From contig JALUXS010000097.1 in NCBI GenBank assembly GCA_027013185.1, forward strand, positions 1 through 39,071: a stretch of 39,071 nucleotides of DNA. Direction: 5' to 3'. The DNA is from Sulfurimonas sp. (GTDB lineage: Bacteria > Campylobacterota > Campylobacteria > Campylobacterales > Sulfurimonadaceae). Below the pieces are notes generated by a model. That model saw nothing but the letters and a program-made list of their open reading frames with translations. It was not told the DNA's origin and made no database searches. Below are positions 6,042-21,159 of the stretch, piece by piece (position 1 is the stretch's first letter; each line of letters opens with the position of its first letter). Position numbers and translations under genes: made by a program.

Positions 6042-6779
6042 ATGGATATTTATTTTTCAGTTTTAAATTTTACACTCTCCGGTGCTATAGGACTAGTCGG
6101 CATTTTTACCCTAAGAAAAGTCAGTACACCCAAGGAAGTGCTCTTTGCACTTCTACCTCTTTTATTTGCACTGCATCAGTTTACCGAAGGATTTGTCTGG
6201 CTGGGTGTCGGTGGCTATATTGGACATCGTGCTTTAGAAATTGCATCTGGTATTTTCATTTATTATGCACAAGGACTTCTACCTTTTATAATTCCACTGG
6301 CTATCTGGTTTATTGAAAAAGATGGATACAAAAAGAAATTATTGGGAATCTTGACAGTTTTGGGCTTTTTTCTTGCAGTATATACAATGTATGCACTCTC
6401 AAATATACCAAGTACCGTGACAGTTGTAAATAATGCACTTTTTTACAATAATCCCAGTACAGCAAATATTTATGATGCACTCTTGTATATTTTAACGACC
6501 TGTGGTGCTTTAATGCTCAGTAGCAGTATCTCTATATCATTATTTGGCTTTTTAAATCTTATTGGACTGACAATCATCTTTTTACTCAGGCCCTATGGAT
6601 TTACTTCATTATGGTGCTTATATGCTGCTGTTATTAGTGGATTACTCTATTTTTATTTTATTGAACGCCGTATAAAGTTTTTGCAAAACCTTAAAGAAAA
6701 AAAAGAGAATATAAGTGAAAAAATGCAGCTAGAGTTGGACAGGCTTTTAGAAAAACATCCAAATCTACGAAAATTCTAA
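6042..6779 (+). CDS. DUF6629-like integral membrane protein
   Basis: 245 residues with about 6-7 membrane spans and a charged coiled C-terminal tail (residues ~207-245, rich in Lys and Glu). The N-terminal layout (small residues, then LRKVSTPKEVLFALLPLLFALHQ and a TEGFVWLG motif) matches what I recall of DUF6629 proteins, for which no activity is known. AGGAAA precedes the ATG by 7 bases. It is the second gene of the operon beginning at 4767. Its stop overlaps the stop of the convergent gene by 4 bases. Membrane nature is clear; the family name is from recall. Confidence 0.7.
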   Translation: MDIYFSVLNFTLSGAIGLVGIFTLRKVSTPKEVLFALLPLLFALHQFTEGFVWLGVGGYIGHRALEIASGIFIYYAQGLLPFIIPLAIWFIEKDGYKKKLLGILTVLGFFLAVYTMYALSNIPSTVTVVNNALFYNNPSTANIYDALLYILTTCGALMLSSSISISLFGFLNLIGLTIIFLLRPYGFTSLWCLYAAVISGLLYFYFIERRIKFLQNLKEKKENISEKMQLELDRLLEKHPNLRKF

Positions 6780-7483
6780 TGACACTGCAGAAGCGTTCTC
6801 AGAGGATTTGTCAGATAGTCATAACCGTTATAAACAGTAAATGCCCCGTAAAGTATGACCGCTACAGAAGAGAGGCTCATCATCATATTTCTAAAACTTG
6901 TAGCAGAAGCAAGTGAAGATAAAAATCCTAAAGAAAACATAGCCGGAATAGTACTAATACCAAATATAAACATTACTAAAGCACCATAAAGAGGGCTTGC
7001 TGTACTTGCCGCTGTAATTGCAAAAAAATAGACAAAACCACATGGAAGCAAACCATTAAGCATACCTAGAATAAAAAAACTGCTATTTGATTTCGAGTGT
7101 AAAATAGACTGAAACGATTTTTTATAAAAATTTGATGAAGATATTGAATGTTCTATAACTGTTAAAAATTTTATTTTCCCCATAAGCGAAAGACCCGCCA
7201 AAATCATAGCAATTCCTGCTATTATCAGGAGTGTCCCATTTGCGGTGTTATTAAAAGTGGCAACACCTCCAATTGCTCCAAAGAGAGCTCCTAAAATTGT
7301 ATATGTTAAAACACGACCAAAGTTATACAATAGGTGTGCTATAGTTTTAGAAACTTTCGAACTTGCAGGTTCAATTTTAACTGCAGAATAAGCGAGTACT
7401 ATACCACCACACATTCCAATACAATGTCCAAAAGAACCCAAAAAAGCAATACTTATAATTGTTAGTAAATTTACGGTATCCAT
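6776..7483 (-). CDS. SafE/DsbD_2-like six-span membrane protein (sulfite exporter TauE/SafE family)
   Basis: 235 residues, about six membrane spans. The first helix holds GHCIGMCGG (H20, C21, C25), the signature of the branch often annotated as 'sulfite exporter TauE/SafE' or cytochrome-c-biogenesis transmembrane (DsbD_2). The second half carries the companion motif NGLLPCGFVYFFA. Members of this branch often sit in cytochrome oxidase or copper-handling clusters, where His/Cys/Met residues could carry copper or electrons across the membrane. Its ATG overlaps the upstream NosL-like stop as TAATG, so the two are translationally coupled. Family good; substrate not known. Confidence 0.78.
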   Translation of the reverse strand: MDTVNLLTIISIAFLGSFGHCIGMCGGIVLAYSAVKIEPASSKVSKTIAHLLYNFGRVLTYTILGALFGAIGGVATFNNTANGTLLIIAGIAMILAGLSLMGKIKFLTVIEHSISSSNFYKKSFQSILHSKSNSSFFILGMLNGLLPCGFVYFFAITAASTASPLYGALVMFIFGISTIPAMFSLGFLSSLASATSFRNMMMSLSSVAVILYGAFTVYNGYDYLTNPLRTLLQCH

Positions 7484-7986
7484 TATTTTCCTAGTAATTT
7501 TTTTCTGATTTTTGGATTTTTCATAGTTTCTCCACGCAGCATTTTTAAACGCATGGTAGCAAAATCAACCAAACCCTTTTTATTATGCTCATAGGCTCCA
7601 AAACCATAGCCCATAGGTGTGATTTCATTTAATGAATAGTAAGCTTTTCTTCCATTTATCCATCTGTGAGTATCCCTGCTCATGACCCAGATTACAGCTG
7701 TTTTTTCAAACTTTTTATCACTCAGCCAATGAACAAAATCACCATGATCGTGAAAAAACCATGTTTTTCCATCAGGGGCAATAACCTGCGAAGCATAGGT
7801 TAAATCATCTATCACCATTCCACAATCACTGTCTTGAAATTTATGTAGCTGCATTTTAAGTGGCAATTGCATCAAATTTCCCTCTTTAATAACAACCATC
7901 TGCTGTTTTTTAGCCAAAGATAAAAAAAGCACAATAATGACAATAATAATAATTCCAACCAGTAAAATCGGCATAAATTTTTTCAT
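7483..7986 (-). CDS. NosL-like membrane-anchored protein
   Basis: 167 residues. Residues 1-24 form a single hydrophobic N-terminal anchor, and the rest should lie in the periplasm. The soluble part resembles NosL, the copper(I) chaperone of nitrous oxide reductase: a CGM motif at 55-57, then WFFHDHGDFVHWL, RDTHRWINGRKAYY and TPMGYGFGAYE (123-133). True NosL is a lipoprotein next to nosZ; here there is a membrane anchor instead of a lipobox and no nos gene, so another copper client (for example cytochrome oxidase) is as likely. AAAGG precedes the ATG. The gene is coupled to the SafE-like gene at 6776-7483. Family moderately sure; role inferred. Confidence 0.65.
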   Translation of the reverse strand: MKKFMPILLVGIIIIVIIVLFLSLAKKQQMVVIKEGNLMQLPLKMQLHKFQDSDCGMVIDDLTYASQVIAPDGKTWFFHDHGDFVHWLSDKKFEKTAVIWVMSRDTHRWINGRKAYYSLNEITPMGYGFGAYEHNKKGLVDFATMRLKMLRGETMKNPKIRKKLLGK

Positions 7987-19847: not shown

Positions 19848-21159
19848 CACCCGCTGCTACGGCTGAACCTATAACTCCTGCAACATTCGGACCCATTGCA
19901 TGCATTAAAAGCATATTTGTACGGTCATATTCCATACCAACTTTATTTGATACACGTGCTGCCATAGGAACGGCAGAAACACCGGCTGAACCAATTAATG
20001 GATTGATTTTATGACCAGGGAAAAGATTCATAAATTTAGCCATCAGTACACCTGCCGCAGTACCTACAGCAAATGCGATAACACCCAAAATCATAATGAA
20101 AAGTGTCTCTGGCACCAAAAATTGATCTGCTGCCAATTTTGAACCAACACCAAGACCTAAAAAGATAGTTGTAATGTTGATAAGTGAATTTTGAAGCGTA
20201 TCATTTAAACGCTCAACTACACCTGATTCTTTTAAAAAGTTACCAAACATAAAAGCACCAATTAGTGGTGTAGACTCTGGTAGCACTAAGATGGCAAGCA
20301 TTAAAACCAAAACAGGAAAAACAAGTTTTTCCAAACGAGACACATGACGAAGTGTACTCATTCTCATTTTTCTCTCTTTATCTGTTGTCAATGCTCTCAT
20401 AATCGGAGGTTGAATAATTGGTACCATTGCCATATAGCTGTAAGATGCAACCGCAATCGCTCCTAAAAGTTCAGGCGAAAGTTTTGTTGCAATAAAAATA
20501 GACGTTGGACCATCTGCACCACCAATAATGGAAATAGCTGATGCCTGTTTAAGCGTAAAATCTACAAAACCATAATGTGCAAGTACAACAGCACCAACAA
20601 GTGTTCCAAAAATACCAAATTGTGCTGCTCCACCTAGGAGTGCTGTTTTAGGGTTTGATAAAAGTGGTCCAAAATCAGTCATTGCACCAACACCCATAAA
20701 TATTATAATAGGAAAAAGCTCATTTGAAAGACCTGCTTGGTAAATAACCCCTAAAAATCCATGTGGTCCAGCAATATCTGCTATAGGTATATTTGCTAAA
20801 AGACCACCAAATGCAATTGGCAGGAGTAAAAGCGGCTCAAATCCTTTCGCAATAGCAAGCCAAAATAATAAAAATGTCACAAGAATCATAATAACACGAC
20901 CAAGACCCTTATGAAAATCACTCATTGGCTTGCCTGTTGCACTTAATTCATCAGCACGAGGATGAACAAGAGCTACTATACCAGTTGATTTCAAGAAGCC
21001 TGTTATCATTTGAGAAAAAGGCTTTGATTGATATGTTTCTTCCTGATGGGCAGAGAGTTTTTGCACACTTGATTCATGCTCCGAGGCCATAGCATTTACT
21101 GAAAAGACACATGCAAAAAGCATCATAGATGCGAGTAATTTAATTACAATATTTTTCAT
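19825..21159 (-). CDS. oadB: Sodium-pumping decarboxylase beta subunit (OadB type)
   Basis: 444 residues. This membrane subunit decarboxylates carboxybiotin and exports sodium ions. After residue 80 it follows the family closely: [17 protein letters not shown], the key Asp segment [13 protein letters not shown] and [21 protein letters not shown] with the conserved Asn and Ser residues. The first ~80 residues are extra: a signal-peptide-like helix ([19 protein letters not shown]) and about 50 polar residues. The usual OadB start corresponds roughly to residue 75, but the ribosome site fits the longer form. It is the last gene of the oadGAB operon. Confidence 0.93.

Follow-up and report, generated by a model that had tools for sequence, protein, structure and literature searches.

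Two overlapping genes on a Sulfurimonas contig encode a NosL-fold protein with a predicted membrane anchor (here N) and a membrane protein of the DsbD_2 family (here S), and together they probably form a copper handover pair. The window, that is, the whole stretch of DNA analysed, comprises 39,071 nucleotides of a Sulfurimonas assembly (G000) of 1.51 Mb in 121 contigs. N (167 aa, 7483..7986, minus strand) was recognised by its open reading frame, structure model and fold match, and S (235 aa, 6776..7483, minus strand) by its open reading frame, Pfam match, alignment and coupling to N. The junction reads ...AAATAATGGAT..., with one A common to the TAA of N and the ATG of S, confirming the TAATG coupling reported in the preliminary description of this DNA. 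From these genes, their coupling, the predicted fold, the conserved residues and the gene neighbourhoods, we infer copper binding, a direction of transfer, partners and a client. N would be a periplasmic Cu(I) carrier with the NosL fold, tethered to the inner membrane, and S would be its membrane partner, giving N either Cu(I) or the electrons that keep its single Cys reduced. N would then hand Cu(I) on to a respiratory copper enzyme, aided by a separate operon encoding NosL, an FtsX-type permease, an ATPase and a membrane protein that we call c24. For G000, in which no nosZ was found, the client would most likely be the CuB site of the cbb3 oxidase. We are evenly divided on whether cbb3 is the main client in G000, and the reading as a whole, a tethered NosL-fold Cu(I) carrier and a membrane partner most likely serving CuB, is likewise finely balanced.

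The adjacency of N and S is far above chance and recurs in many Campylobacterota. S adjoins N in 28 of the 29 non-self loci L003-L031, with a contig end cutting two, and among 80 loci drawn from named genomes both reading frames were called in 76; with starts taken from the longest ORF, they lie within 30 bases of each other in 75 of these 76 and show the exact one-base overlap in 26. In L087, L095 and L105, ORF calling did not pick up N, and L100 is without S. In 40 of 54 genomes with the pair there is one S match only among the matches listed, and two of the pair genomes (G026 and G152) each have one further S match outside that list. The neighbours of the pair are genes for an HD-domain protein and a tyrosine recombinase (by Pfam) and polA and an HDOD gene (by eye), and the same gene order surrounds it in many Sulfurimonas loci; these genes look housekeeping and therefore carry little information on the function of N and S. 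A convergent DUF6629 gene (6042-6779) overlaps S (6776-7483) tail to tail by four bases. The window's ORF list (at least 80 aa up to base 20000 and at least 120 aa beyond, with six ORFs profile-scanned), read by eye, shows no nosZ, nosDFY or oxidase gene, as previously stated, and the ccoN of G000 (TIGR00780) lies on another contig, C4. The earlier characterisation of the pair as being without nos genes holds at this locus; relatives of N, however, are found within or next to nos clusters.

N is a NosL-fold protein by its predicted structure. In a Foldseek search with the AlphaFold model (pLDDT 94.3, built from 47 sequences), NosL chains of NosDFYL entries take the top four places (best E 4.9e-4). 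A second aligner matches the model to the NosL crystal structure 7og7 with Z 13.9 (2.2 A over 111 residues) and to the NosDFYL chains with Z 12.7-13.3; the next other fold is MerB at Z 6.6, and the older NMR structure of NosL, 2hpu, gives Z 4.4 only. The likeness of MerB to NosL is the topic of a paper cited in PMC7558416. The structure prediction that had been suggested as a check thus returned the NosL fold. The Pfam NosL profile (PF05573) does not match the window's N even at E<=1; 18 of 26 aligned N members match it weakly at E<=0.1 (best 1.5e-4), the window's N not among them, and solved structures searched by sequence with N, S and c24 yielded no useful match. At L144, a Sulfurimonas locus with a nos cluster, the lipoprotein-like NosL encoded there is 38% identical to N over 95 columns, with the CxM and TPM motifs aligned. 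As profile comparison with the NosL operon proteins is weak alone, the claim that N is NosL-like, made previously from sequence, rests on the fold, the CxM and the second Met. N has one strongly hydrophobic stretch, residues 7-25, and a model helix at residues 5-27 (7906..7974, minus strand), which bears out the proposed membrane anchor; N has no lipobox, since its only Cys is C55.

PMC6530538 presents NosL as a dedicated copper chaperone of nitrous oxide reductase and ascribes to it a CxM motif plus one more invariant Met, with CxxCxM in clade II proteins. The corresponding residues of N are C55-x-M57 (7816..7824, minus strand), matching the CxM copper motif, and M125 in the sequence TPM (7612..7614, minus strand), which the alignments place opposite the conserved PM of NosL. 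C55, M57 and M125 are invariant in 47/47 close and 26/26 wider relatives, the 47-sequence alignment consisting of the window's protein and loci among the 80 best matches and hence of close kin. The segment H79-D-H81 (7744..7752, minus strand) belongs to one of two site types that are all-or-none in the 26 wider relatives, H79 without Cys at 83 in 15 and D79 with C83 in 11, and the nos-cluster NosL proteins compared here have DDIGC (DDxGC) at this place. Of the four ligands first proposed, C55 and M57 are conserved throughout and H81 is kept in one of the two site types only, while H86, present in 14/47 and 4/26 relatives, was rejected. N and the NosL of PMC6530538 are alike in fold, CxM, second conserved Met and a periplasmic domain on a membrane tether; they differ in that N has a helix anchor rather than a lipid, an invariant Asp52 at the position of the first Cys of clade II NosL and HDH for the DDxGC of the nos-cluster NosL proteins compared here, and in that nosZ was not found in G000.

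S is a full match to the DsbD_2 family (PF13386; 2.5e-51, 174.9 bits against a cut-off of 24.9), differing from other members in its coupling to a NosL-like gene and its short tail ending in Cys-His. Its GHCIGMCGG motif, already noted in the preliminary description, contains the segment H20-C21-I-G-M24-C25-G-G (7403..7426, minus strand), in which H20, C21, G23, M24, C25, G26 and G27 are invariant in 26/26 sequences. Equally invariant are H50, H112, C148 in LLPCG (7040..7042, minus strand) and C234, the latter forming with H235 (24/26) the C-terminal pair (6779..6784, minus strand); the tails of all 25 N-linked S proteins contain CH or CC. With helix ends placed by eye, the mean Lys+Arg content is 3.2, 5.5 and 1.8 in three alternate loops, compared with 0, 0.1 and 0 in the N-terminal end and the two intervening loops and 1.1 in the C-terminal tail. 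If the positive-inside rule applies, S would have its two termini in the periplasm, with the Cys-His tail turned towards N. Several S relatives that do not adjoin N (in L136, L137, L148 and L150) have C-terminal tails rich in Cys/Met or Met/His, such as KCGGMKCAPGKCG and MKMHMHHMM, which by their composition look like copper sites. A copper-rich tail as a rule for S proteins linked to ccoN was rejected, as the seven ccoN-linked tails of family f20 are 4-9 residues long with at most one Met.

The cysteines of S could serve electron transfer or could bind Cu(I). In DsbD and CcdA, electron transfer relies on two Cys, one each in helices 1 and 4, and we take the position of C148 to resemble that of the second redox Cys in these proteins. 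S might then relay electrons as CcdA and DsbD do, holding the thiols of N, NosL and c24 in the reduced state, while no copper would pass through S; either client would be compatible with this. Its membership of DsbD_2 and its two Cys in the first helix region plus one at LPC, all invariant, point that way, as do the conserved Cys pairs of c24. Against it, N has a single Cys, no thioredoxin-like CxxC partner was seen beside the pair, and several S relatives away from N have the copper-site-like tails described above. As an alternative to copper passage through S, we consider this relay possible but somewhat doubtful. A 111-aa gene that follows N in G018 was considered as a thioredoxin-like thiol partner and dropped, as it is without CxxC and its YtfJ match is weak and below cut-off.

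Genome comparisons were made in a sample of 199 genomes, with the positions of N, S and ccoN taken from the best ~150 matches listed, weaker ones falling outside, and absence of ccoN or S assigned by elimination from the listed positives; G002, G042 and G071, with ccoN matches weaker than 1e-8, were scored as without ccoN. For nosZ, 81 rows in 80 genomes were kept at 1.8e-23 or better (74 genomes above the cut-off), leaving out weak cupredoxin-like rows and some second fragments. The names carA, ccoO/Q/P, DUF507, polA, HDOD and MFS, and those of nos genes except nosL, nosY and nosZ, were assigned by visual inspection or by resemblance to such genes.

The link to cbb3 comes from S. In other genera, S relatives lie directly upstream of ccoN, and among the matches listed for the 199 sampled genomes a relative is found within 6 kb of ccoN in 31 and adjoins N in 54. 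Among the matches listed, no genome has one S beside N and another beside ccoN, a statement that covers the 40 pair genomes with a ccoN position, the other 14 of the 54 having none among those matches. The order carA–S–ccoN occurs in G102 and G089 (L136 and L138), from sister genera within the window's own family; the carA–ccoN gap of G000, G125, G034 and G147 (L152-L155) holds no ORF of 70 aa. Further supporting such a link, ccoN is found in 163/173 genomes with S versus 6/26 without, a comparison in which one family, f16, accounts for at least 11 of the 20 genomes with neither gene. In a tree of 76 S rows (25 N-linked, 17 ccoN-linked and 34 other), the N-linked and ccoN-linked proteins fall mostly in different clades, so that the two kinds may be paralogues. 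A simple move of S from ccoN to N was considered and not adopted, the root of the tree being unsure and reciprocal loss of paralogues being an equally good explanation. The pair itself shows no enrichment with ccoN (47/54 versus 122/145 genomes, p 0.82, ignoring kinship). The earlier suggestion that the pair delivers copper for oxidase assembly is partly supported: it gains from the relatives upstream of ccoN, from the co-occurrence of S with ccoN and from the failure to find nosZ in G000, but not from the distribution of the pair.

Many relatives of N are the last gene of an operon that encodes a NosL (PF05573), sometimes a ~100-aa protein, an FtsX-type permease (PF02687), an ABC ATPase and c24. 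The c24 protein is a Cys-rich membrane protein of ~320 aa with conserved GAMC, CC and PTHxCPFC motifs; the one relative scanned had no Pfam match, and a model built from five sequences (pLDDT 68) gave no fold match. Its CPFC preceding a helix gives the impression of a DsbB-like protein. c24 is present in 95/199 sampled genomes of the order and in 47/150 of a phylum-wide draw, and among the matches listed N lies within 600 bases, on the same strand, of 82/111 c24 rows in the 199 genomes. In G000 the operon lies without N on contig C32 (L032, with c24 at L032:5317-6276) and N-S stands separately, a split also seen in G125, G016 and G147 of the same genus.

In many relatives a NosL-fold protein adjoins an ABC permease and an ATPase, as in the NosDFYL machine (7osf, 7osg, 7osj and 7znq). 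The permease of the c24 operon is of FtsX type, whereas the nosY compared here is ABC-2, and the operon is without NosD and has c24 in addition; in G000, moreover, the pair is split from the c24 operon and has no NosD, NosF or NosY genes beside it. The c24 operon itself occurs in or beside nos clusters at L042, L050, L140 and L204, and 18 of the 58 genomes with both c24 and nosZ have the two genes no more than 25 kb apart. At L204 (G180), the operon closes with a NosL gene whose product starts with a lipobox-like sequence, and nos genes lie ~5 kb away. The nos region of L042 (G142:C44) encodes three NosL-type proteins besides N, of 157 and 164 aa (by Pfam) and 358 aa (by clustering and alignment). 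Beside the nos cluster of G125 (L144:5332-6970), a NosL gene overlaps a second nosD-like gene tail to tail, and this nosD-like protein is 45% identical to that of L042.

These associations favour a general periplasmic copper supply, in which N-S and the c24 operon would have no dedicated client and would supply any respiratory copper enzyme present, NosZ as well as cbb3. Both the pair (31/80 versus 23/119 genomes, p 0.003, ignoring kinship) and c24 (58/80 versus 37/119) are commoner in genomes with nosZ; in the co-occurrence comparison first proposed, the pair is thus enriched with nosZ and not with ccoN. Seven pair genomes are without ccoN, and without ccoO as well; six of them have nosZ and the seventh (G156) is 79% complete. 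ccoN or nosZ is thus present in 53/54 pair genomes, a weak argument given that ccoN was scored present in 169/199 sampled genomes. Conservation of the pair in organisms with no copper enzymes, which had been named as evidence against a copper role, was not seen: 20 of the 23 sampled genomes scored without ccoN and nosZ hold none of S, c24 and the pair, and of the other three one has ccoO, so that its missing ccoN is probably an assembly gap, and two are at 88% and 79% completeness. In G000, profile search of the 79%-complete assembly did not find nosZ, the sole match (2.5e-4) lying inside a 575-aa multicopper oxidase frame; with the assembly incomplete, nosZ could sit in the missing part. In G125 (L144), nos genes adjoin a transporter gene close to the cco genes, a place where G000 (L152) has other genes. 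The nos cluster of G125, also a Sulfurimonas, comes with its own NosL lipoprotein, and yet N-S is kept elsewhere in that genome, which speaks against a shared general supply. Given the pair's enrichment with nosZ, its lack of enrichment with ccoN and the six ccoN-less pair genomes with nosZ, this alternative remains a strong rival to delivery to cbb3, even if we judge it rather unlikely.

The multicopper oxidase of G000 (575-aa open frame, G000:C110:26001-27518, L156) has small neighbours that look by eye like copper-homeostasis genes, and it is another possible client. Its presence could also suggest that the pair serves copper defence and not enzyme assembly, but it lies on contig C110, not near the pair, and nos and cco genes are found next to N and S relatives, making this very improbable.

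The families concerned, NosL and DsbD_2, are known. In beta-proteobacteria, NosL is reported mostly from species with nitrous oxide reductase (PMC6769254). A Parageobacillus NosL without NosZ, described in PMC13068155, resembles the present case in that its gene is proposed to serve another copper enzyme; it differs in that NosDFY is present, the NosL is a lipoprotein and the proposed client is nitrite reductase. Dedicated copper delivery to cbb3 in the same phylum is represented by the assembly genes of Campylobacter jejuni (PMC8267372), a source that calls cbb3 biogenesis in microaerophilic pathogens little known and whose main text does not mention NosL, SafE, TauE or DsbD. Our searches of open-licence PMC literature found no description of the N-S pair or the c24 ABC operon, nor of the anchor, the re-tooled site or the way in which S lies beside N in some genomes and beside ccoN in others.

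A bolder form of the cbb3 reading, speculative and in our view quite unlikely, is that N represents an 'oxidase NosL' branch re-tooled for oxic respiration, with Asp in place of the first Cys, His-x-His in place of the later one and a helix anchor instead of the lipid. With S, c24, the FtsX-type ABC motor and NosL, it would make up a second powered machine for copper insertion, a parallel to NosDFYL that serves cbb3. Returning to the preferred reading, if N-S serves cbb3, NosL-type chaperones would have a client besides nitrous oxide reductase, and respiratory copper in Campylobacterota would be linked to a recurring ABC operon that includes a membrane protein unnamed in Pfam.
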